Source: Malania oleifera (lineage: Eukaryota; Streptophyta; Magnoliopsida; Santalales; Ximeniaceae). From it: 64,000 bases of DNA. The notes beneath the pieces are model-generated. The model saw only the letters and a program-made list of their open reading frames with translations, was not told the DNA's origin and did no database searches. The stretch is taken from positions 120,536,719-120,600,718 of the forward strand of contig NC_080420.1 in the NCBI RefSeq assembly GCF_029873635.1. The letters run 5' to 3'. Position 1 is the first letter of the stretch; each line of letters begins with the position of its first letter. A program made the translations under genes and the position numbers. Positions 14,504-55,164 of this stretch are shown piece by piece.

Positions 14504-16949
14504 TAACGTCCCTCAATTTCTTAACATAAAATATCACATAATAAATAAAATGGTCAACCCGAACCCGTGGGTAGCAGGGACACCTGTCAAACACAACGAA
14601 AAACCTAGCAGCAGTAAACATAAAATCTCAAACATCCAATTATAAAACATAATACCAGACCATTCTATACATCCTCACATACATCAAAATATCTCTAGGG
14701 TCAAACACAAAATAACTCTGACGCTATTACAAAATCTTACCCTTCTCACAGGGTAATCTCACTAGCTTAACGGCGGCCTTAACCCATCGGTCTCTCAGGG
14801 GCTCCTGAAAAATTAATTAAGTTTGGGGGTGAGACACTTCTCAGTAAGGGAAAATAAACTAAATACAGTTGTGTGGCAACATGAATATTTAATGCATTTA
14901 TACGTATATAGTACATTTCATAATTCCATAAACATCATCATCATATCGTACTGGGTAAACATATATTTTCATATCTGTTAATAATTCATATCATACATAA
15001 AATCATCTGTTATAACTGTAGTACTGAAAACAAACCCAAGATGAATAGCTAGTTGGTGTCATGTATTACCCCCCATGACGGGTTGTGCAGCCCGAAGGCG
15101 GGATCCGACAATGGCTGGCCGACCACTGCCGAATCAAATATGTCTGTAAGTACGATGAGCCTGCCACACCCTGGTCCGGACTGCCAGGTGGACGTCCACA
15201 CTCTACTGAAAGCCACATCGACTATCCATCTCCCATCCCCTCGTGGGATGGTTAGCACTAATCTGACGTAGATATCTGATCTACACATATAGTTACGGTA
15301 CCGAGCCCCTGAACTGAACTAAACTAATATCTTAATGGTGATAACATATAATACATGATCATATATATAACATCATTACGGCCTCGTGCCGAAAATATAG
15401 TAATTACGGCCTCGTGCTGAAAACATAAATACGTGGCCTCGCGCCAATAACATAAATTTGGCCTCGTGCCGATAACATAAATACGGCCTTGTGCCGATAA
15501 CATAAATACATGGCCTCGCACCAATAACATAAATACGGCCTCGTGCCGATAACATAAATATATGGTCTCGCGCCAAAATTGTTTCAGGTATATATATTCT
15601 AAAAATACTTCATTTATCACATAATCGTCAAAACTATCACAACATAACTCATATTTTCATAATACCTGAAATCATGCTTTGTTCGTAAAATCTTTCACAT
15701 CATAATACATTTCACATAAAATAATATTCATGCCACACATATGCTGTTAAAAGTCATACTTCATATTCTAAAATCGTGAATTACTTACATCTCATACATA
15801 CATATACATTTTAATCATCATAGCAGTATTTTCCCAATCGTACATTTCATTCGTAATACACAATATAACATATGCTTTTCTGAAAATAAATTTACTCATA
15901 ATCAATAATAATTTGTATGGAAAATTACTACTTTAGTTTATTCCCTTACCTGACTACTGAGAAATTCGTTAGGACGCAAAATTTCACGCCCTTGGCGCTC
16001 AAAATTCAACTCTTGAAATTTACATTTTCCCCAGATTAATTAATTTATTTCTCCAAAATAATACTCATCTAGCCTTCCCTAGGCTCCATATACCTCAAAT
16101 TAATATTTAAACTATTATTTAACATTCCCACTTAATTTTCCAAGTTTTGTCTGTGGATCCCAAAATTACACCCGCGGCGCTTACCCGAGCCCTAAATTCC
16201 AGAAATCCTACTTCAATCCTAGATGCTTAATATTTTAGCATTTCTAAATTAATGCTAATTAATTAAAAATAAGCCCCTTAATAACCGCCGCACCCCAAAT
16301 TTGGGGTTTTGGCCCGACACCCCCACGAAAATTTCGTCCCACTAGACTTGTAAAGAATCATCCCTAGATTCTCGTGGTGGTATCCGTTCATCAATTGGGC
16401 TTATATTTTGTAAGAAATTAAAGAAAAAAGGAAAAATGGCTTACCCCAAGGAATACTCTTACGCCGCTCCTACCACCGATCCGTTTCGGTAAAAATGACG
16501 GCAGCGGCAAATGGAGTCCAGTGGTATTTTCGAATTTTCGATCGGGCGAAAATCCATCACGAAATTGAGGAGAGAGGGAAGAGAACGTGAGGAGAGAGAG
16601 AGAGAGATTTTAGAGAGTTGTAGGAAAGTAAAAATAAAAAAAAGAAAAGAAAGAAAGAAGAAGAAGAAGATAGGAAATGGGGGGGGCTGCCTGCCAAATG
16701 AATTCCTAAAGCTTCTAGCTTCAGGAATGATAATAATAATAATAATAATAATAATATATTTAATTAATATAATAATAATAAATTTTATTAATAAAAATAA
16801 AAATAAATTTTAATTAATTTTTTTTCTTTTTCTTTTAGATCCGATTAATTAATTAGTTAATTATTTATTTATTTATTTTTTTAATTTTTTAATTTTTTGG
16901 AAATCAATCCACTAATTTTTTTATATCTCTATTTTTAGGGTTTTTTACA
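14504..16949 (-). mobile_element. Gypsy-type solo LTR (inner)
   Basis: It starts (minus) TGTAAAAAACCC at 16,949 and ends GGACGTTACA at 14,504, giving 2,446 bp. Flanks are ATAAT (14,499-14,503) and ATAAC (16,950-16,954), 4 of 5 matching. It contains the conserved LTR boxes 'GGGGGTGAGACACTTCTCAG' (about 14,825) and 'CCCCATGACGGGTTGTG' (about 15,070), and a hairpin minisatellite at 15,379-15,575. It lacks the TCGTCGACGA module found in the LTR around it. Confidence 0.82.
15379..15575 (-). repeat. Minisatellite of small hairpins (CGGC..GCCG / TGGC..GCCA)
   Basis: About eight units of 24-29 bp, spaced by ATAACATAAATA. Each carries a 13-nt palindrome. Units at 15,379, 15,484 and 15,536 read CGGCCTCGTGCCG or a close variant; units at 15,434, 15,511 and 15,563 read TGGCCTCGCGCCA or a close variant. 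The closing pair of the stem changes from C-G to T-A together on both sides. A related array lies in the LTR at 49,678-51,704. Confidence 0.85.
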
Positions 16950-19890: not shown

Positions 19891-21180
19891 ATACGTATAT
19901 ATGCAAAATGAAATGATTGATTTGATAATTAATGATATGAAATATCCATGATCACTGTTTCAGTATATACTATATGTTATCAGAACCTGGTTGGTTTGGT
20001 CTAGGCTAATACTTGCACGGTACTGATGCTATGTGTTCATGATTTATCATGATATTTGTGTTAACGCCGTTGTACGGAGTGGTGTGAGATTAGATGGTCG
20101 ATGTGGTTTTAAGAAGTGTGTGAGCGCCCCTGGTGTACGGATAAAGTCTGGTAGACCCATTGGACTTACAGACTGTACTTTTGACTTAGCAGTGGTCAGC
20201 CAACCATTGTCAGGTCCCGCCTTCGGGCCACACAACCCAGTCATGTGGGGGTAATACATGACAATAGTCAGCTAACATTCTAGGGATGTTTGTTTTGTAT
20301 TATTATTTATATGATATGAATTATGCTATGGAAACCATTATGTTCTGCCATGTTTTGATTATATATGTTTTTCTCATAAATGATATATATACAGTTTTAT
20401 TGGTTATGTTTATGACTATATGTATACCATAGAAATGCTCATGTTGTCACATACTAGTGTTAGTTTATTTCCTTTACTGAGAGGTGTCTCACCCCAAAAT
20501 TTTATAAACATTTCAGGAGTCCCTGATAGGAAAGCGGGTAAAGCTCCGCTGACTTAGTATTGTTGATCTACCCTCTTTGAAGGTTAAGTTTTGGTGGGGA
20601 CGGTTGGATTTTTGTGAAAAATGTCCCTAGGTCTTTCTTTTTGGGATGTATATACTTAAATACAGTGGATGTAGTAACTCTAGTATTGTGATGGATGGTT
20701 TTGTGTTTATGATATGACGATTTTATGTTTCCTACTGCTTAGGCTTCCGTATTGTGTTACTGTTATATCCCTGGTACCACGGGTCCAGGTGGATTATGAT
20801 CTGCTGAGTTTTGTGATATTGGTTTTAATATATTATGGAAAAAAAAAACTTATGGAAATTAAGCAGGTCATCACAGTTTGGTATCAGAGCCTAGGTTGTT
20901 AGGTTCTGTAGACTTTAGAATGCAGCGGAAACAATACTAGAGTATAAGAAATGATTTAAGGTTTTCTTCTACAGTCTAGAGGCAGGATTTTCGTGATAAT
21001 TTTTGTGTTTTTTCTGGGGTGACGATTTCAGGAAAACCATAGTAAGCTACTGTCGGGTTGTATTCCTAGAAGGTAGAACTGGGGATTAGAAATAAGTTGG
21101 GAATGTTAAGATAAGTGGTGAGGTTAGGTGGGTAAATTATAAGGATAGAATTTCTAAGTTGCATTTGTTGTTTTCAAGAT

Positions 21181-34670: not shown

Positions 34671-37397
34671 TGTTGTTTATGGTGTGGCTCTTATACTTTA
34701 GGAGTTTATAAACAAAGAGAAAAACATATGAATGTGGTCTTGGTGTAGGGCAACAGCAAAGACTCGTCGACGAGTGGCCTTCTCTAGTTCGTCGACGAGT
34801 GCCCTGTTGTCACGACCTGCTCATTTTTTTTTCCATATATTTTTTTTCTCTATATAATATCAATATCACATATCCCAGCTCAGCAGGTCACAATCCACCT
34901 GGGCTTGTGGGCACCAGGGATATATCAGAACATAAAGTAGAAGCCCTAGCAGCAAAAAATATATAAACATGTACATCTCAATACCATATACCACAATATA
35001 CCAGAGTTACTATAATCACTGTATTTTCATATATACATCCCAAAAATAAAACCTAGGGACATTTCCCACAAAAGCTAACTGTCCCTACAAAACTTACCCT
35101 TCAAAAAGGGCAGATAGATCATACTATATCAGCGGGGCTTTTCCCGCTCTCCTATCTGAGGCTCTTGAAAAGTTAATAAGATTTAGGGGTGAGACACCTC
35201 TCAGTAAGGGAAATAAACTAATACCAGTGTGTGGCAACATGAGTATTCTGTGTTTTACATATACCATACATAACATATTCAATACTGTTTATCAAATCTG
35301 GGAAAATTTACATATATATCAACACATAGCAGAATATACTGCATTTTCATAAACATATCTCATCTCATACAATAATAATAATATAAAAAAAATCCTGGTA
35401 GGTTAGCTGGCTGTTGTCATGTATTACCCCCACATGATTGGGTTGTGTGGCCATAAGGCGGGACCTGACAATGGTTTGGCCGACCACTGCCAAGTCAAAC
35501 AGTAGTCTGTAGGTCCGATGGGTCTACCTAGACTGGTCGGTACACTAGGGGCGATAACAGCACACTTCTTGAAAATAACCACATCGACCATCCAATCTCA
35601 CACCACTCTGTACAGTGGCGTTAACACAGATATTATGATCACGAGGGCCATGGACACATAGCAACGGTACCGTGCAAGTGCTAGCCTAGACCAAGCCAAC
35701 CAGGTTCTGATATCATATACATATACTAAAATCGTGATACATGGGTATCTCATATCAATAATTATCAAATCAATCATATCATTTTTCACATATACATATT
35801 TCATGAAAATCATCAGCCCGTACGCCGGAATTATACATTTTATCATAGCTTGGCTCATACGTTGGAAAATCACATAGCATAGCCCGTACGCTGGCAAATC
35901 ACATAGCTCGGCCCGTACGCTGGCAAATCACGTAGCACAGCCCGTACGCTGGCAAATCTCATCCACATAGCATGGCCCGTACGCCAGCAAACATATCCAC
36001 ATAGCACGGCCCATACGCCGACAAATCACATATATATATATATATAAATATCTCGGCCCGTGCGCCGATTTTCCATCATAGAAATCCACATCGTCCCCAT
36101 TCCCAGAAAACAGTATTTCACAACATTTTTATACTCATGCCACACTAAACAAATTTTCCACGTATTCAACATATCATCATTTAAACAGTATTTTCCAAAT
36201 ATAAATCATATATAATAATATATATATTTTTCCTAAAACTAGATGCTACATATATATACATGCATTTTTCTCAAAACAAAACTAGTTTAATTTATCCCCT
36301 TACCTGATTCCCAAAAAGCCCCTAAGAAAATCTTCCCCGTACCCACAAGGTTCTCAACTCTACACCCTGAAAATGAAAACTCGTAAAATTAAAGTTTAGT
36401 ATTTTCGTACATACAACATTTTCTATAACTACTACTAAGTCAAATTCGGCTTAAAAAAATCTTACCTCAACTTAAGGATGATTCCCAACGTTCCCAATCA
36501 ACACCCCTGGAAATGAAAATTTCCAGTATTAAAGTTCAGTATTTTTACGCGTATATCACTTTTTTCAACTGTCAAAAATCCAAATATCGAGTATAAAGCC
36601 TTACCTTGGATTTGGGATGAAATCCAACTTCGTTTCCCTGACGATCCGCTCCGGCAGACTTGTAGAGAACTTCGCCAAGAGCATCGTGGTGGCTTCGGTT
36701 TGTCGATCCGGCGTAAAACTAGACCGGAATTGAAGAGAGAGAGAGTCGTAGGAGAGAGAGAGGAGAGAGAGTGAGAGAGTGCACTGACGCACACCAAAAT
36801 CCAATTCAATTTGGATTTTGACTTTCAAAACTTCTTGAAGAAGCTTGTGTTATTATATATATATATATATTTTCCTTATCATACTATTCATTTTACTTGT
36901 TAATTTAATTAATTTATTTTATTTTATTATTATTTTTATTATTTTTTTAAATGTTATTTTTCGCGGTTACTACACCTGTTCTCGTCAACGAGTGGTCACT
37001 GGGTTGCGAGAAAGAATTTAAATTTTGTATTTGAATGTTGGAGCGGTTGGGATTTGGAGGGAAACCTATGAGGGGTTGTTATATATGTCATTCTGGGCAT
37101 ATTTCAACATGTAAGAGAATAAGAGAGGGTGAGTGATGGAGAGAAGATCATTGTATTGTGAGACTTTGATTTTCATAGTGAATCTCTTGCCTATTGCTCC
37201 CATGGATGTAAGTTTTGTTGAACCACGTAAATCTTGGTGTCATTGCACTTATCTTTATTCTCTTTATCTTACTATGGTTGTGAAATGTTTTCTGTTTATC
37301 ACCATTTTGTTTGTTGCAAGTATGTATGTGTGATCCTTTATACAATGTTCATTCCGCTGCGCATTGTTGCGAGAGGCCGTCCTTATTTTTCATAACA
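34671..37397 (+). repeat. 3' LTR of the copia element, split by a solo LTR
   Basis: The two parts are 34,671-34,807 and 36,980-37,397, separated by the gypsy solo LTR with its duplicated CCTGT. Both parts match the 5' LTR well (TCTTATACTT...GAGTTTATAAA at one end and 'GAGAGGCCG...TTATTTTTCA' at the other). Confidence 0.88.
34808..36974 (-). mobile_element. Tekay-like gypsy solo LTR nested in the copia 3' LTR
   Basis: 2,167 bp, starting (minus) TGTAGTAACCGCG at 36,974 and ending GCAGGTCGTGACA at 34,808. Identical duplications CCTGT lie at 34,803-34,807 and 36,975-36,979. It carries the 'GGGTGAGACACCTCTCAGTA' box (35,187), the 'CCACATGATTGGGTTGTGTG' block (35,430) and the CGTACG minisatellite at about 35,815-36,070, as in the Tekay LTR at 18,826. 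There is no internal region. Confidence 0.92.
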
Positions 37398-40660: not shown

Positions 40661-42017
40661 TATTTTTAACTTTCATTCCTATAATAGATTTTGTATATTT
40701 GTATACATTTCCATACAAACATTTTATTAATGTGTGAAATATTCTTCACAAAAGTACTAAAAATTTTACTATAAAAATTTTCAAACTTCATCAATCCCAA
40801 CAAAATTGATTGCCCGGCTATAAAAGAATACACATGAGCTCAAATAGGTTGGTTATATGTTTTAGTTTTGAAAAAAAATATTAACTAGACATGTCTTTGT
40901 TCCCAACTTTTTATTTTTGAAGCTTAATTCCATTTCTTAAACCCATGCTTCACTTTGTGCAAAGTTGTAACAACCTGGAAAATTTTAAATAATTTAAAAT
41001 TATAAGAAGATAAAAGGGGAGGAAGAATAAGTTGGAAAAGGGTGTGGCAGCAAGCATTCGTCGACGAATGGATTGGTCTCATCGACGAATGTTCTACTTA
41101 GCTCATCGACGAGGTTACGTGTCTCGTCGACGAGGAATTACCGAGATGAGTTTTTATAGACTGAAATTCGTTGACGAGTTGGTTGTCTTGTCAACGAACT
41201 GTGTACAGGACTCGTCGATGAATTGACGTGTCTCGTTGACGAATCCTTGGATATAAAAGAGAACTTTTCTTTCATTTTAGCACAGAATTCTTGCATGTTC
41301 ACCTTCTCTCTCTAGAAATTCGACCATCCTCCCTTCTCTCTTCGATTTCGAGCCGGATTTCCGCCAGTTCGACAATCTGAAGCTACCACGCCGCTCCTAG
41401 AAGAGTTCTCTACAAATCTGCTGGAGTGGATCGTCAGTGGGACTAGTTAGGAATACATCACAGATTTAAGGTAAGGTTTTTTATGTAAAATTTGGCTTTA
41501 CCCTAGTTGTAGGAAATATTATGTACGAAGAAATACTAAAGTTTAGTTCTGAGATATGTGATTTGCAGGGCGTTGAAAGGGGAACCCTGCGGGTGCAGGA
41601 CTGGTTATTTTAGGAGGCTTTTCAAGAATTAGGTAATGGGAAATATTTTATAATAGCTTTCTAGTAATTATTAAAATGACTAATTTTGGGTAAAAATCCT
41701 AAATATACAGGTATAATTTTCCTAAACCAAACTGATATTGAAAATACTGTTTTAATTATATAAGTATTAAATTGGGGAAAATTGTGTGGTTGAGACCATT
41801 TTGCTAATTAAACGATTGTGATTTATGTGGAATGAGGAAATTGTTGGGATTATGAATGTTATTTGACTGAAATTCTTGTATGATTAAATACACTGATTGG
41901 ATTGTGAACATTGTATGGTTGAGAATACTGGATGGTTGAGTATACTGTGGTATTTGCGTGGACATGGTTGATTGGTAAGGTTTGTGATTGATATGTGGTG
42001 TGGTTCATGTAAATGGC

Positions 42018-42162
42018 GATATAACGTTGGCAGTGGTATGAGGAGGTCGTTATATCGTACATGATATAACTGTCATATAATGTTGGCAGTGGTATGAGGA
42101 GGTATATGGACGTTTATACTGGGAGGTAAACATTGGCAATGGCATGAGGAGGTTGTTTACCT
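42018..42162 (+). repeat. Three tandem hairpins with one loop sequence and different stems
   Basis: The loop TTGGCAGTGGTATGAGGAGG (or a close variant) occurs three times. Stems are GATATAACG/CGTTATATC (42,018-42,026 and 42,048-42,056), CATATA/TATATG (42,074-42,079 and 42,103-42,108) and AGGTAAACA/TGTTTACCT (42,124-42,132 and 42,154-42,162). The arms differ between units but stay complementary within each. Confidence 0.85.
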
Positions 42163-42409
42163 ATTTATCATGAACAGGGTGTTTATTTTGTAATCTGTGT
42201 GATTTGATTAGTCATGTGTGGACCAGTCCTGTGTGGACACTGTTGCTGCGAGATTTGATCCTGTGTGGATTGATTATGATATGGGCGTATGCGTGAAATT
42301 CTGTGAAGCGATTGTGTTGGCTTTGTATGAATGTTAAATAAATTAGTATTTTGGATAAAGTATATTATTCCACTTGAGAGCTTGTTGAGGAAGGCGAGTA
42401 CTCTGGTAA

Positions 42410-42590
42410 TTATTTATAGATACCAGGGTAGAGGGAAGCCACTTATATGGGCGGGTGAACTTCCCCATTCTCGGTGTCTTTACTTGAATACATAACCCGA
42501 GGGCTTACTGAGAAAGGTGAGTGCCCTAGTGTTAGCACTAGAGCAGAGGGAAGCTACTTGTATGAGCGGGTAGATTTCCCTATTCTCGGA
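42410..42590 (+). repeat. Two longer repeats, each with a GGGAAG hairpin
   Basis: Two related units of about 90-120 bp contain GGGAAG/CTTCCC (42,433-42,438 and 42,460-42,465) and GGGAAG/TTTCCC (42,548-42,553 and 42,575-42,580). Both have a 21-nt loop resembling CTACTTGTATGGGCGGGTA. Each is preceded by another small stem (CTGGTA/TACCAG in the first, CTAGTG/CACTAG in the second). The same loop occurs in the LTR at 52,951-55,427 with different stems. Confidence 0.78.
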
Positions 42591-43097
42591 AACTAACATT
42601 AAAATACTGATGGGTTATGTGTATGCAATTGGATGATAAGGACGTTGATCCTGTGCGATTATTGGCATGTTATCTGGTTTCTTGTGAACTGTGTGTACAC
42701 TTTAGATGGATATTTTAATTGTATTATAAACACTTCAGCCACACACTATTATAAACTATTTTCTTCCTTACTGAGAGGTGTCTCACCCCAACATATGTTA
42801 AATCTTTTCAGGTTATCCAGGTGGTCAAGCTTAGGTAGCTCCAGGGCGGGGTAATTTTGTGAGTAGAATTGGAACGGACCTATTTAGTTTTATGTTTCTT
42901 TATATTTTATCCATGTTTGTAACCTAAAGTACATGACCATATGTTATGAGTCTGTTAATGTTTAAATTTAGAACTCTGGTATATTTTGTTCGAGGTTATT
43001 TTATTATTATTTTTTGCTGCGTTATTGGTATCGGGGACGTGTGTCGATCCCTTAACACTCCGGGCCCCACATGGCGAGTTTGGGGCATTACAAAAGT

Positions 43098-47007: not shown

Positions 47008-49657
47008 TGTAGTGACCTAGAGAATTTATAATATTTAAATAATAAAAGTAAGGGAGAAAAGGAAAATTAAAAGGGGGTAAATAGGTCTTTGTCGATGAGA
47101 AAATACCGAGAGGGGGGGTTTTGGGCATCTCTGAATTTTGCCAACGAGTGAAGGGTTCTTTGACGAATTGCTTATTGACCTCGTCAATGAGGTGACGTGG
47201 CTCGTCGACGAAGGCCAGTGTATAAATAGGCCAAATCTTCATTTTTGGCCAAAAATTCATGCACAACTCTCATTTTCTCTCTCCTTTTTAGTTCTCCTTC
47301 CTTCTCTCTCAATTTTTGGGCCAAATTTTTGCTGGTTCGACGATCTGAAGCCACCACAACACTCCTGGGAGAGTTCTCTGCATATCTGCAGGAGTGGATC
47401 GTCGGTGGGGTTGAGTTGGAAACCATCACAAATTCAAGGTAAGGCTTTCTACTTAGTATTTGGCCTTACTATAGTTGTAAGAAATGCTATGTACGATGAA
47501 ATACTGGAGTTTAGTTTTGGGAAATATTATTTTCAGGGTGTTGAGCGGAGAGTCCTGTGGGTGCAAGGCGGATTATTTTAGGGGCTTTTAAGGAATCAGG
47601 TAGGGAATAAACTAAGCCAGTAATTTTATGAAAATGTATGCATGATCTTACAATATTTGGTTTCAGGAAAATGAATATATATGTAAATTTTATGTTGGGA
47701 AATACTGTGATAAATGGCGACGTATTTAAATATACCTAATACCCATTCTATGTGGCATGAGTAAGATTTATTGTGAAATACTGTTTTCTGAGAATATTTT
47801 TATATATGATATGCCAGCATACGGGCTGAGCTACTAATATGATATGCTGGCGTACGAGCCGAGCTACTGATGTGATATGCTGGCGTACGGGCCGAGCTAT
47901 TGAGGTGATTGAGCCGGCGTACAGGCCGATGATTTTTCACTTTGTATATGAAATGTGATATGATGATAGTGAATTGACAATTATTACTATAGAATAATGA
48001 TTTATCATGATTTGGAATATGATATATGGTATCAGAACCTAGTTGGCTTGGTTTAGGCTTACACTAGACACAGTACCGTAGCTATGTGGTCACGTTGATC
48101 GTGATATTTGTGTTATCGCTGTCGTACAGGGCAGCATGAGGATGGATAGTCAATGTGGTTATTGAAGTGTTGGCACCCTGGTGTACGGACTAGTCTGGCA
48201 TACCCATCGTACTTACAGACATTTATTTTGACTTGGCAGTGGTCGGCCAGCCAGTGTCAGGTCCTGCCTTCGGGACACACAACCCAGTCATGTGGGGGTA
48301 ATACATGACATTAGCCAGCTAACCTACCAAGATTGTTTCGTATTATTATCATTATAAAAAGATGGATTATGTTTATAGAAACTCGGTATGTTTGGTTATG
48401 TTATGATTATACATGTTTTCCTAGAAATAATATTGACAATTTTACTAAATATGTTTATGTATGCTCTTATGTATAACATGAAATACTCATGTTGTCACAC
48501 ACTAGTATTAGTTTATTTTCCCTCACTGATAGGTGTTTCACCCCAAATTATTTAATTATTTGAGGAGCCCTGAATAGGAGAGCGGATAAAGCTCCGCTGA
48601 GATAGATATCGCTGGTCTACCCTTTTCTGAAGGGTAAGTCTTTTTGGTAGGGTCAAATGGATGCTGTGGGAAATGACCCTAGGACTGGTCTTTGGAGATT
48701 TTGGGAAGTGTATTATGAATATAGTAAACTTTGATTTTGTATTTAATGATATTCCAGGATATATATGATTTTATGTCTTCCTGCTGCCTAGGCTTCCGCA
48801 TTGTATTTTTTATATGTCCTTGGTACCCACGGGTATAGGTGGATTATAATCTGCAAGATTTATTAATTTGGAAAAAAAAATAGTAAAATAGGCAGGTCAT
48901 TACAGTTTGGAGTCAGAGCCTAGGTTGCTACGTTCTGTAAACCTTATAGTGCAGAGGAAACAATACCAGAGTATAGAAAAAAGATTTGAGGTTTTGTTCA
49001 CGGTCTAGAGACAGGACTTCCGTGGTAGTTTCTGTGTTTTTCCTGGGATGACGATTTCAGGAAAATCATAGTAAGCTATTATCAGGTTGTGTTCCTAGAA
49101 TGTAGAACTGGATTTAGGTATAGGATGGAGTTATTAACATAAGGGACTATGTAGGGTGAGTAAAATATGGGGAATAGGTATCTAAATCATGTTTATTGTT
49201 TTTCAGGATGGACCCTGGAGGAGGTAGTGCCCACGTAAGTGGTAGTGATGGAGCAGGACCCTAAACTGCAGGCGGGACTGATTCTAACGCAGTTTTACAT
49301 AGCGTGGCTCAGCAGGTTATGGCTGAGATCGCTAGGAGCTCTAGAGAGCAGAGAGGTACGTCTGCAGGGCATGGATGCACTATCGAGAAGTTTACGAAGA
49401 TGAATCCTCCTACCTTTTTAGGAGGAGTCGATCTTGCAGCCGTTGAGAAATGGATGCAGGAGACGGAGATAGTCTTGGCTATGTTGCAGTGTATTAAGAA
49501 ACAGAGGGTCCTCTTTGCCACCTATAGACTGACAGGAGAGGCTGAGAGGTGGTGGACTGCAGTGAAGCTTCTGGAGCAGCACAGGTACAAGTGGATTATG
49601 ATATGCAAGATTTATTAATTTGGAAAAAAAAAATACTAAAATAGGCAAGTCGTTACA
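47008..49657 (+). mobile_element. Shortened Tekay-like gypsy copy
   Basis: Identical duplications TTAGG (47,003-47,007 and 49,658-49,662) show that it is a single insertion. It consists of a 5' LTR (47,008-48,904), a primer site (TTTGGAGTCAGAGCC), the start of gag from 49,207 (with TFLGGVDLAAVEKWMQ and TYRLTGEAERWW) and the tail of a 3' LTR. Most of the coding region is absent and it is broken. Its LTR resembles that at 18,826 (palindrome module 47,090-47,215, TATAAATAG at 47,221, CGTACG minisatellite 47,805-47,930). Confidence 0.9.
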
Positions 49658-49677: not shown

Positions 49678-51704
49678 TGTAACGACCTCAAAATCTTAAT
49701 ATAAAATGAAGCATAATAAATAGAAAAGTCAACCTGAACTCGTGGGTAGCGGGAATAGCCTGACATGAACAACGGAAACCTAAGTAGCAGTAAGTATAAA
49801 ATTTCAATCATCCAACCATAAAATATAATACCAGAGTTTACTACATCATCAAAATACTGTATTTAAATACAACCTCCAAATTTCAAAATAACCCTAGGAT
49901 CATACAACAAAAATAATCTTGATCCTAGTACAAAATCTAACCCTCCCAGTGGGGTAACTTAATAAGCTCAACGGCAGCCACGACCTGCCGGTCTCTCAGG
50001 TTCTCCTGAAAAATTAATTAAATTCGGGGGTGAGACACATCTCAGTAAGGGAAAATAAACTAAATACAGCTGTGTGGCAATATGAGTATATAATGCAGTT
50101 ATACATATACAATACATTTCACATATCTGTAAACATTCGTCATAATATAATGAATCATCATATACTTTCATATTTTTCTAGTAACTCATATCATTTATAA
50201 ATCGTCTGTTATATCTGATAATACTAAAAATATACACAGGATAAATAGCTAATTGATGTCATGTATTACCCCCTATGACGGGTTGTGCAGCTCGAAGGCG
50301 GGACCCGACAATGGTTGGCCGACCACTGCCGAGTCAAAAATGTCTGTAAGTACGATGGGCCCGCCACACCCTGGTCCGGACAGCTAGGTGGACGTCTACA
50401 ACTCTACACTGAAAGCCATATCAACTATCCATCTCCCACCCTCTCGTGGGGTGGTTAGCACAAGTCTGAACATAGATATCTGATCTATATAGCTACGGTA
50501 CCGAGTTCCTGAATTGAACTAAACTAACATTCGGGTTATGATAACATATAATACATGATAATATGACATCTTTCATAATTTCATAAATACGGCCTCTCGC
50601 CGAACATTTCATAAATACGGCCTCATGCCGAGCATTTCATAAATATGGCCTCGTGCCGAACATTTATTAAATACAACATTGTGCCGAACGTTTCATAAAT
50701 ACGGCCTCGTGCTGAACATTTCATAAATACGGCCTTGTGCCGAACATTTTATAACATTCTGAAGATAAATCAATTACCATGTATTTCAAAATTATCATAT
50801 ACTGCATTATTACGTAATTCTTGAAAACATCCTTATTCGTAAAATTGCTGTAACGTAATACATTTCATGGAACATAGTACTCATGCGACACAATGCTGAA
50901 TTAAATCATACGTTCCATCTAAAATCGTAATTTTTGTATACAGCAGCATTTTCCAAAATATACATTTATTCCATAATATTCGTATATAATACATGTTTTT
51001 TCTGAAAATAATTTACTCATACATAATAATAATTTGCGTGGAAAATAACTGTTTTAGTTTATTTCCTTACCTGGCTACTAAGACAACCCCTAAAATATCC
51101 TGGTCTAACACCCGTAATATTTCCTGACCAATACCTTGAAAATGAAAACTCTAGTACTAAATTTCAGTATTTTCACTTGTATATCATTTCCTATAACTAT
51201 CGTAAGACCAAATTTGGCTTTAAAAGCCTTACCTCAACTCAGGTATGAATTTCAACGGAGTTCCACCAACGATCCGCTCCCGCAGATATGCAGAGAACTT
51301 CTCTAGGAGCGTTGTGGTGGCTTCAGATCGTCGATCCGGTGAGCGACGGAGCCATAATCGAAGAGAGAAACCGTAGGGAGAGAGAGAGAGAGTGAGTTTT
51401 TTTTTTTGAAAATTTTGACATTTAAATCTGGGTTTTTGATATTTATAGGACTGGATTCGTCGACGAGCCATGTCATCTCGTCGATGAAATTCAGACTGCT
51501 TCAAAACCTCTCTCGGTATTTCCTCGTCGATGAATCCCCTATTTTCGTTGACGAGGCCCTGATAATCCCCCCCCCCAGGTTATTCATTCCAAAGTGCAAT
51601 GTCGTGTTCGTCGACGAAGTTGACTGCCTCTTTCTATTACCATTTCCATTTCCCTTCCTCTTTATTATTTTAAATACCATTTTTATTATTCAGGTTGTCA
51701 GACA
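49678..51704 (-). mobile_element. Gypsy-type solo LTR, nested in the SIRE-like LTR
   Basis: About 2.03 kb, ending (minus) GAGGTCGTTACA at 49,678. The start near 51,704 is less certain, since no clean 5-bp duplication is visible. It carries the conserved 'GGGGGTGAGACACATCTCAG' box (50,027), the 'CCCCTATGACGGGTTGTGC' block (about 50,270), a CGGCCTCGTGCCG minisatellite (50,580-50,750), a TATA (minus, 51,441-51,448) and palindromes at about 51,455-51,620. Confidence 0.78.
50578..50755 (-). repeat. 30-bp minisatellite with CGGC..GCCG hairpins
   Basis: About six units of ATTTCATAAATACGGCCTCG followed by TGCCGAAC. Like the array at 15,379 it contains a short palindrome per unit, but here most units keep the C-G closing pair. 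Confidence 0.85.
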
Positions 51705-52950: not shown

Positions 52951-55164
52951 TGTAACGCCCCGAACCCTTAATCCCGAGTCCGGTGCGTTATGCCTGATAA
53001 AATCCCTGATAATCCATAAACCAATATATACGCAGTAAAAAACATAAACATAATCTCCATATAACATAATACTAGAGTTTACTAATTCTAATTATAATCT
53101 ATAATAAATCATCCATCACCTCCATTTCCATAAATCTACATAACTCCCAAAACAATTCAGTATTTTCACAATCATTCCTTACTCAATAGCCTTAAAACAT
53201 AAAGACATAAAACATAAATATTTACATTCCCCAAAATTAACATAGAAATATACCCTTTTCTTTTTCTATTTCCCAATAATGCTATAAAAACCTTGAGCTC
53301 TCAAAGTTTGACCTCGAGGACGTCCTGAAAAAGAAATACTTTATATTCGGGTGAGACACATCTTAGTAAGGGAAGAAACAATATATTAAACTCAGTGTGT
53401 GGCCATCATGAGATTATACATATCATTTTATAATATTTGCAAATCATTAACATAACATTGAAAGTCATTTTCTGAACCTAACAATCACATGCAAAGGTTT
53501 ACCCACGAGATTACCCAAGGATAGGGGTGATTACCCGCCCATACAAGTAGCACCCCTCTGCTCTGATACTTAGGTAACCCGAAGGTCATTATTGAAGCAT
53601 ACCAGAGCGCTCACCTTACTCAGTAAGCCCTCAAGTGTTAACTTGATCTCATACTCACGCATTCAACAACAGTTTACCGGTAAAAGCCCTAAGGATAGGG
53701 AATTATACCCGCCCATACAAGTAGGTTCCCTTTACCCTAGTGCGTTATGCAGCTACTGCCACATCTGAAACTACAAGTGCACTCACCTTACTCAGCAAGC
53801 CTTCAGGCGAAGAGTATGCCTCGCGCAATCGTAACATGTTTTACATATATAGATACTTCTAATATCATAATACATCATTCTTTCCATCGTTATTCAATCA
53901 TTCACATTCTTTCATATTCATAACTTAACATTTCCTTGTGTTTCACTTTAAGTGACTCTTTCCCATTTATATCATTCACATTTCACATTTCATTTCATTG
54001 CATTGTCATTCCTTGTCATTTCATTTTATAACATTTTCATTTCATTCCTTTGTATTACAACCGCTCTTTAGCCGTCATCAGTTAGTCCACATAGAAATGT
54101 GCTAAAATCTGCTACAGTTAGTCCACATAGAAATGCGTTAAAATCTGCTATCCCGGTTTTCAGCTGTTGTACCTTTACATGGTTGCATTTAACATACACA
54201 AGTAACATTGTCCATATCATATTTTATTCTCATTACTTTACTTACTTAGCCTGTATCTTATACATTTAACATATAATTTGCACAGATTCTAATGCCACAC
54301 AATTTAACAATAAAATTCATACATTGCCTGTAAAATAAGTCAACAAACATTTAACGTTTATATACTGAAAATACCTTTCATTTCTTACATGATTATTCTG
54401 AAAATATTTTTTCACTTTCATCAGTTCATTTTTGCATATACATATCTAATAAACAACCATAAAATCGAAAAAAATATAATTTAAACAGTTGACATTTTAC
54501 CCATACCGAAACATATACACGTATATATAACACAATTTATTTTTTCATTAAATTCATAAAAATTTTAGTTTAATATATATTTTTCCCCTTACCTGATTTC
54601 TTGAACTACGCCAACAGGGACTCCGAAAAATACCTACGACGCTCACCCGGTCCCTGAATCAAAAACCCTAGTTCCATTAAATTAATCATAAATAAAATAC
54701 TATTTAACTATTTCCTAGGACCATAATTCCCAAATAAATAATAATACCTGCAAATATAACCATTTTTACAAATTTCCCAAATCTCTCTATTGCTTTGGAG
54801 TGAGACCTAGAAAACCACAATTGAAAAATTACCTACGCCAAAATGACGACGATGACGACTAGGACCCCGTGGTGGTGTCTAATCGTCGATTTAACAGCAT
54901 ATTTAAAGAGAAATTAGAAAAATAGGAAAAAAATTACCTTTCCCTAGGAGCAGTGCCTAAGCTGTTCCCACGACAAATCTGCTCTAGTAGAAATGTCGGC
55001 AGCGAAACTAGGAATCCAACGACACCTTCCGTTTCCCGATCCGCTGCAAATCTGCCGAGAAATTGAGAAAGAGAGAGAGACGGAGACGGAGCGAGCTGAG
55101 GCTCGCAGAAGAAATTTCAAGGGGGGGTAGGCCGCCTCTGACTTCTTCTTCTTCTTCTTTAGTT

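Follow-up and report, generated by a model that had tools for sequence, protein, structure and literature searches.

Tandem RNA units with covarying stems in a predicted leader intron of long terminal repeats of Malania oleifera

Why should the loops of a series of hairpins stay constant while both arms of their stems change together? The question is raised by a solo long terminal repeat (LTR) of the plant Malania oleifera, here called LTR A, which lies on the forward strand at 40966..43092 of the 64,000-nucleotide window that was analysed (assembly GCF_029873635.1, contig NC_080420.1, positions 120,536,719 to 120,600,718; coordinates below are those of the window). Two kinds of hairpin, type 1 and type 2, are found in tandem in LTR A. 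Analysis of the window, and of the 1.49-Gb assembly to which all genome-wide counts refer, revealed that type 2 is an RNA unit of four helices, arranged in tandem and present in thousands of places, in which the stems covary and the loops are conserved. We consider the hairpins to be parts of sense-strand RNA modules in the transcribed R/U5 region of plant Ty3/gypsy-type LTRs, probably serving as a packaging or dimerisation mark, and give this reading a probability of about 0.5.

A second loop type, closed by GGGAAG/CTTCCC and GGGAAG/TTTCCC, had been reported in the first-pass annotation of this DNA. It is indeed present within 42370-42596 of LTR A, as a hairpin forming one arm of a larger unit; the latter of the two stems includes one G.T pair. 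The loop sequence given for it, CTACTTGTATGGGCGGGTA, is not exact for LTR A, where the copies have CCACTTATATGGGCGGGTG and CTACTTGTATGAGCGGGTA; the sequence as given is found in LTR E (52951..55150, reverse strand, with a provisional 5′ border), a diverged relative of A. The complete type-2 unit is 104-131 nt long, usually occurs twice per LTR in two diverged LTR families, and has four helices: an outer stem, a GCTTACT/GGTGAGY hairpin, a variable hairpin, and a two-part hairpin with the conserved loop. Both units of LTR A (unit 1, 42370..42481; unit 2, 42493..42596; forward strand) form four-helix junctions, the second with a folding z of -5.5. Two further units, absent from the first-pass annotation, were found on the reverse strand in LTR E (unit 1, 53682..53810; unit 2, 53508..53638), the second with a compensated stem GGGGTG/CACCCC. 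A covariance model was built from these four units, which score 116.5 and 110.3 bits in A and 98.5 and 112.3 bits in E. Comparison of A with E by BLAST (E 1e-4) found common stretches only in the type-2 units and in a block around acceptor 2 of the predicted leader introns described below. The 18-mer of the type-2 loop has 7,775 exact occurrences genome-wide, versus 0 for the reversed control. At six other loci (L106, L114, L115, L119, L122 and L126) the type-2 units are broken at the stem by the apparent end of another LTR (...TTACA or ...TGACA), possibly as a result of insertions.

Covariation was measured on matches to the model, of which 151 were obtained in 77 loci, 13 of 90 loci having been dropped before the search as overlapping others; 150 matches were aligned, 145 entered a tree-aware test and 144 a test on a MAFFT alignment. 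Among the 150 aligned units, 93.1% of cells were paired, versus 88.9% after shuffling and 43-50% when the structure was slid, and 344 cells carried double changes versus 130 after shuffling. Because this alignment was fitted to the structure and the units are related, two further tests were run. Against a tree-aware null in which the changes of each column were placed independently, 19 coordinated double changes were counted (null mean 6.8, maximum 14 of 300) and the summed G was 881 (null mean 398, maximum 713). The MAFFT alignment, made from sequence only, gave 16 double changes versus 7.5 (p 0.005) and a G of 883 versus 444 (p 0.010), and five of its six slid controls were null for double changes. 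Among the four window units, pair 11-120 of the outer stem is A-T, G.T or G-C and pair 88-112 is A-T or T-A.

The pairs of the type-2 units comprise 1,212 G.T cells versus 180 A.C cells, and the sense fold was more stable than the antisense fold in all of the 142 units compared. The mean folding z was -2.5 for the sense and -1.5 for the antisense strand (first 60 of the 142 units), so the excess of sense-strand stability is partly a matter of composition. Together, the G.T excess and the stability of the sense fold point to a sense RNA. Changes that keep a pair were relatively more frequent on internal branches of the tree (84:41) than on terminal branches (238:201; p 0.01), the pattern that a constraint on the replicating lineage, but not on resident copies, would produce.

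The three type-1 hairpins, which had been described as sharing a 20-nt loop within differing self-complementary stems, were confirmed at 42017-42162 on the forward strand. Hairpin h1 (42017..42057) has a perfect 10-bp stem, CGATATAACG/CGTTATATCG, and a 21-nt loop; h3 (42124..42162) has a 9-bp stem, AGGTAAACA/TGTTTACCT, in which six of the nine pairs are unlike those of h1 and all six are compensated. The stems of both contain Watson-Crick pairs only. Hairpin h2 (42074..42108) is closed by CATATA/TATATG alone because its 3′ side is 4 nt shorter in LTR A than in the sister copies, which have 9 bp. The 20-nt loop pattern occurs three times versus 0.00 expected in 100 shuffles, which excludes chance, and a 14-mer of the loop has 2,883 exact matches genome-wide versus 11 for the reversed-pattern control. 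A family-majority comparison was made with 120 hairpins whose arms were near the known ones, taken from 139 found in loci L010-L069. Over 21 nt, h1, h2 and h3 have one and the same majority loop; the majority arms of h1 and h3 again differ in six of nine pairs, every one compensated, and those of h1 and h2 in one compensated pair. In a subfamily of h3 (for example at L043, L046, L047 and L065), one additional A in the 5′ arm is matched by one additional T in the 3′ arm, a compensated insertion. Apart from this insertion, the compensated changes of type 1 are confined to the comparison between tandem paralogues. A genome-wide search for alternative stems, with a pattern without the AA of the known arms around the exact 20-nt loop, returned 11 matches, with four flanking letters only. 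Both strands of the type-1 region fold (z -2.05 and -2.74), so type 1 by itself cannot separate an RNA from a DNA structure. An extra arm copy, GATATAAC, was noticed by eye in the spacer between h1 and h2 (42048-42074) and could pair with the 3′ arm of h1 in an alternative fold.

The position of the modules was examined in LTR A together with the related LTRs B, C, D, E, F and G and part of H, which the window also contains. LTR A has a TATA box at 41252..41259 (forward strand, LTR offset 287), and transcription was assumed to start about 30 nt downstream of it. On that assumption, predicted exon 1 is 185-190 nt long with one ATG in A, B, D and F. It is followed in A by predicted intron 1 (41471..41568, forward; 98 nt, AAG|GTAAGG...TTGCAG|G; 98-99 nt also in B, D, F and G) and predicted exon 2 (41569..41632, forward; 64 nt, GC 50%, no ATG; 63-64 nt in B, C, D, F and G). 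Predicted intron 2 (41633..42811, forward) is 1,179 nt long, has 36 ATGs and contains all the hairpins of LTR A; across the LTRs it measures 0.97-1.27 kb with 36-76 ATGs, and 2.5 kb in C, where it apparently holds an insertion. The hairpin arrays of A, B, C, D, E, F and G are all located between donor 2 and acceptor 2. At 42767..42789 (forward), 22-44 nt before the end of intron 2, lies a conserved block, CTTACTGAGAGGTGTCTCACCCC, which is found in A-H with up to 5 substitutions and includes CTTAC, which we take to be branch-point-like; a hairpin-capable block adjoins acceptor 2 in the same eight LTRs. Predicted exon 3 of A (42812..42850, forward; 39 nt, boundaries set by eye) is followed at 42851 by donor-like GTAATTTTG, which is weaker than the GTAAGT of B3, F and G. 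In B and F this exon is 66-68 nt long; the donor after it is GGTAAGT in B3, F and G and GTTAAG in B5. The third acceptor is predicted in sister element F at 49199..49208 (forward), where TTTTTCAG|G adjoins and directly precedes the gag ATG at 49208; in B the corresponding context is TTTTCAAG|ATGG. The layout of a TATA-like motif, short GC-rich exons and AT-rich introns is thus predicted in common for A, B, C, D, F and G; TATA or TATA-like motifs were found in B, C, D and F, and none was convincing in G or E.

Once joined, the predicted exons would form a leader of 319 nt containing a single ATG in B as well as in F, whereas the unspliced leader has 2,097 nt with 69 ATGs in B and 1,956 nt with 61 ATGs in F; removal of the third predicted intron would also take out the primer-binding site (PBS). 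In 29 copies of the family of LTR A (family A), conservation was highest at donor 2 (0.948), acceptor 2 (0.955) and the type-2 units (0.92-0.956), with 0.87-0.94 in the type-1 pieces, 0.92 in exon 3 and 0.82-0.90 in most other stretches. These data strongly suggest that the leader has three introns, of which the second contains the modules, and that splicing would give a gag mRNA with a short leader; from the sequence the introns are likely to be real.

Reverse transcription of spliced RNA would yield LTRs lacking intron 2, and joined-exon patterns were therefore searched for genome-wide. The A-type pattern had two matches, below its control (five) and neither of them in a family-A LTR, with partial coverage, since 13 of 34 flank pairs lay within its three mismatches. 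The E-type pattern had no match beside 3,100 unspliced acceptor contexts, its flanks being recognised in 17 of 30 loci at the donor and 10 of 30 at the acceptor, again partial coverage; the B-type pattern had none in a search made without a positive control. The lack of intron-less copies in three families means that splicing is absent, or that spliced RNA is kept out of reverse transcription, or that such copies are too rare or too decayed for detection.

No match to the type-2 model was found in sister LTRs B, C, D, F and G, whose predicted intron 2 contains another conserved and structured block, block K. It is located in intron 2 of LTR B at 20000..20300 (forward), and in the further sister LTRs at 48045-48345 (forward) and at 15030-15330, 50232-50532 and 35395-35705 (reverse). 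The motif GCAGTGGTCRGCCA is present in block K of all five (20189 and 48236, forward; 15129, 35490 and 50329, reverse) in hypervariable surroundings. Of 65 predicted pairs, 13 show double changes; 90.7% of cells are paired versus 86.8% after shuffling and 31-43% when slid, for a structure derived from these same five rows. Double-change cells number 22 versus 11, a value reached in none of 500 shuffles. An 11-mer of the type-1 loop, TTGGCAGTGGT, lies within block K; it matches exactly in F and G, and at all but one position in B, C and D. Other arrays in the sister LTRs (CGGC...GCCG in C and D; GCC...GGC in B, F and G) have 3-4-bp stems with mixed pairing, and as their C-G to T-A changes can be CpG decay, no structure is claimed for them.

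On the favoured reading, transcription from the TATA box would produce a long RNA with two fates. Spliced, it would have a short leader suited to the translation of gag and would have lost the modules and the PBS; unspliced, it would retain both and could act as the template for new copies. The modules might then mark the unspliced genomic RNA for packaging or for the pairing of two genomes, and spliced RNA would be kept from reverse transcription. By the predicted splice sites, the modules would be present in the unspliced and absent from the spliced form. Selection would act on the replicating lineage, while resident copies decay. We also propose, more tentatively, that the modules, located in a leader intron that is retained, serve as an RNA identity tag that can be replaced, being type 1, type 2 or block K according to lineage: the tag would send only unspliced RNA into particles, splicing would remove tag and PBS to give gag mRNA, and family A, non-autonomous and lacking coding capacity, would persist because it bears the tag. 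To our knowledge, separation of translated from replicated RNA in plant LTR elements, and the hitch-hiking of non-autonomous ones, are known for few elements. A conserved module that recurs thousands of times, within a predicted intron whose splice sites are clear, offers a direct entry to the question of RNA separation, and suggests that much of the tandem-repeat turnover in LTRs may occur inside a functional RNA region.

Several results weigh against this reading. For type 2, the slide +2 control on the MAFFT alignment also gave an excess of double changes (10, p 0.016), new G.T and A.C changes did not differ between branches (43:29 internal, 151:103 terminal, p 1.0), and unit 1 of LTR E folds weakly (z -1.1). 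For type 1, an alignment of 38 orthologous segments (5 of 43, broken or odd, being left out) showed no covariation: 2 cells carried double changes versus 4.2 in shuffles, 92.9% were paired versus 93.2% in shuffles, and RNAalifold did not pick the three stems. Block K has weak z values in four of five LTRs (-0.8 to -1.5, on about 110 nt of each), and its antisense fold is equal or better in B5, F and G. As to the introns, conservation within family A is lower at predicted exon 2 (0.838) and at acceptor 1 (0.849) than in the introns; sites are degenerate at acceptor 2 of F (TTTGAG) and G (CAAG), acceptor 1 of D (CAAG) and donor 3 of B5 (GTTAAG); and in LTR E donor 2 and acceptor 2 were the sole leader sites identified, neither exon 1 nor intron 1 being recognised. 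Intron-less copies, finally, would be just as absent if splicing never happened. Selection on structure, as suggested in the first-pass annotation, is upheld by the multi-copy alignment and the phylogenetic null for type 2 and fails among the orthologues of type 1. As resident copies decay and the orthologues lack covariation, the compensated type-1 changes would be old, would predate the spread of the family and would represent few events.

Of the other explanations, a role of the structures in splicing control is the most probable. The structures could fold the 1.2-kb intron so as to join donor 2 to acceptor 2, or hide and expose sites, with no packaging role; the placement of the arrays between these two sites in A-G and the hairpin-capable block beside acceptor 2 in A-H would both fit. 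Conservation of the loops as sequence suggests a bound partner and not distance alone, and we consider splicing control as the whole explanation rather unlikely, although it is compatible with a packaging or dimerisation mark.

It is somewhat more doubtful that template switching (quasi-palindrome copying) during replication made and corrected the stems without any need for selection. A template-switch origin of RNA hairpins has been described in ribosomal RNA genes (PMC8794818, in the part of the article available to us); the mechanism changes both arms at once and keeps the loop, as do the multiple compensated changes here, where h1 and h3 differ in six of nine pairs under identical family-majority loops and the h3 subfamily has a compensated insertion. 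Frequent switching should leave new compensated arms in resident copies. Within the set of 7,775 exact type-2 loops, all three G's of the 5′ arm are missing in 28, and none of these 28 is fully compensated, the best having six of seven pairs; units with one or two G's changed lay outside this search. Thus, unlike in the ribosomal RNA hairpins, full compensation was not seen in the resident copies tested, and the type-1 orthologues show none beyond shuffles. The earlier suggestion of a copying process that rewrites both arms finds no support as one still at work in resident copies, and it would leave the conservation of the loop and of the whole unit unexplained. Template switching may have supplied a few old stem changes that were then kept by selection.

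We regard it as unlikely that the arrays are a long structured leader for ribosome shunting or internal entry on the unspliced RNA, as in plant pararetroviruses: the many ATGs before gag in the unspliced leaders of B and F and the stable folding of the type-2 units would suit such a function, but the consensus splice sites would strip all but one ATG. Even less likely are palindromes acting at the DNA level, as dyad-symmetric protein sites or cruciforms. The Watson-Crick stems of h1 and h3 and the folding of the type-1 region on both strands agree with this, and Sirevirus LTRs have repeated palindromic motifs with variable intervening bases, dyad-symmetric DNA sites located upstream of the TATA box (PMC2829016, from the portion consulted). 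Unlike these, the structure here is a multi-helix RNA unit, type 2 depends on many G.U pairs on the sense strand only, and the arrays start about 760 nt downstream of the TATA box. Least probable is a neutral by-product of tandem repeats in a hypervariable LTR region, with C-to-T decay mimicking compensation: such repeats are common in some plant LTR elements (PMC7004042, seen in part) and the A.C mismatches expected from this decay account for 20 of the 33 unpaired cells of h1 and 24 of the 48 of h2, but double changes from A-T to T-A and from G-C to C-G do not result from deamination, and the tree-aware null was exceeded.

Retroviral packaging and dimerisation signals (psi and the dimerisation initiation site, DIS) are stem-loops with conserved loops downstream of the major splice donor. 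The modules resemble them as leader stem-loops with conserved loops that are, by prediction, in unspliced RNA only; they differ in their position, which is upstream of the PBS in R/U5 and within a predicted intron of 1.2 kb. Retrozymes are non-autonomous plant LTR elements that carry hammerhead ribozymes. Like them, family A would be a non-autonomous plant LTR element with a structured RNA in its LTR; unlike them, LTR A has no match to a hammerhead or any other ribozyme. Rfam covariance models (4,227 families, up to E 3) gave no match in LTR A and no ribozyme match in the window; two weak sub-threshold matches (E 2.4 and 0.35) lie close to the far edge of LTR E and outside its units. Matches in IMG/VR, seven to a 16-mer and two to a 20-mer, were rejected, as the resemblance to LTRs was only short and weak; other pattern searches gave zero matches in IMG/VR, bacterial and archaeal genomes, and plasmids. 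Structured leader RNA is itself known in retroelements; what would be new here is its unusual place and its replaceable modules. The first-pass annotation knew of no such system for plant LTRs, and we found no description of such a module in the open-licence literature searched.

Two further plant systems bear comparison, each through a partly available source. BARE1, a Ty1/copia element of barley, has distinct RNA pools, with two promoters and an intron at the end of gag (PMC3735527, accessible sections); as proposed here, translated and replicated RNA are kept apart, and spliced RNA is not found as genomic DNA, but BARE1 is a copia element, its intron is not in the leader, and separation is by the two promoters. 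Ogre/Tat elements are plant Ty3/gypsy elements that share with the LTRs of the window hypervariable tandem repeats; theirs are located in the 3′ untranslated region, downstream of gag-pol, whereas the arrays here are inside the LTR, and no RNA structure is claimed for them in the part of PMC7004042 that was consulted.

LTR A itself is 2,127 bp long, TGTAACAACC...GGGGCATTACA; it has the TG...CA ends of an LTR retrotransposon (TGTAAC...TTACA), is flanked by an AAAGT target-site duplication, and its borders recur in the family copies. Several of these copies have the PBS TTGGTATCAGAGC, presumably of the tRNA-Met primer type, directly after the LTR border, or the polypurine tract AAGAGGGGGAGAA directly before it. 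The genome search found five pairs of family-A matches on the same strand about 3.8-4.0 kb apart (L011 and L012 being among the paired loci), from which an element of about 5.9 kb with about 1.7 kb between its LTRs can be deduced. No open reading frame of at least 100 aa was found in 3.7-kb stretches of two family-A copies; family A is therefore probably a non-autonomous element with long LTRs. A provisional assignment to Ty3/gypsy comes from sister element B, in which gypsy-type gag, protease, RT, RNase H and integrase SH3 domains were seen (Retrotrans_gag, below cut-off, RVP_2, RVT_1, RT_RNaseH and SH3_Tf2-1) and to which A is tied by its leader sequence. In some family-A copies the type-1 array is directly followed, near a AGTCCTGTGTGGAC repeat, by additional sequence that varies in length, and matches are split there at query 296-324. 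Upstream of the TATA box, at 41056-41250 and in the U3 of B, C, D and F, palindrome-like TCGTCGACGA motifs were seen by eye to be repeated, and recall dyad-symmetric promoter repeats; the antisense strand of the U3 of A also folds well (z -3.8).

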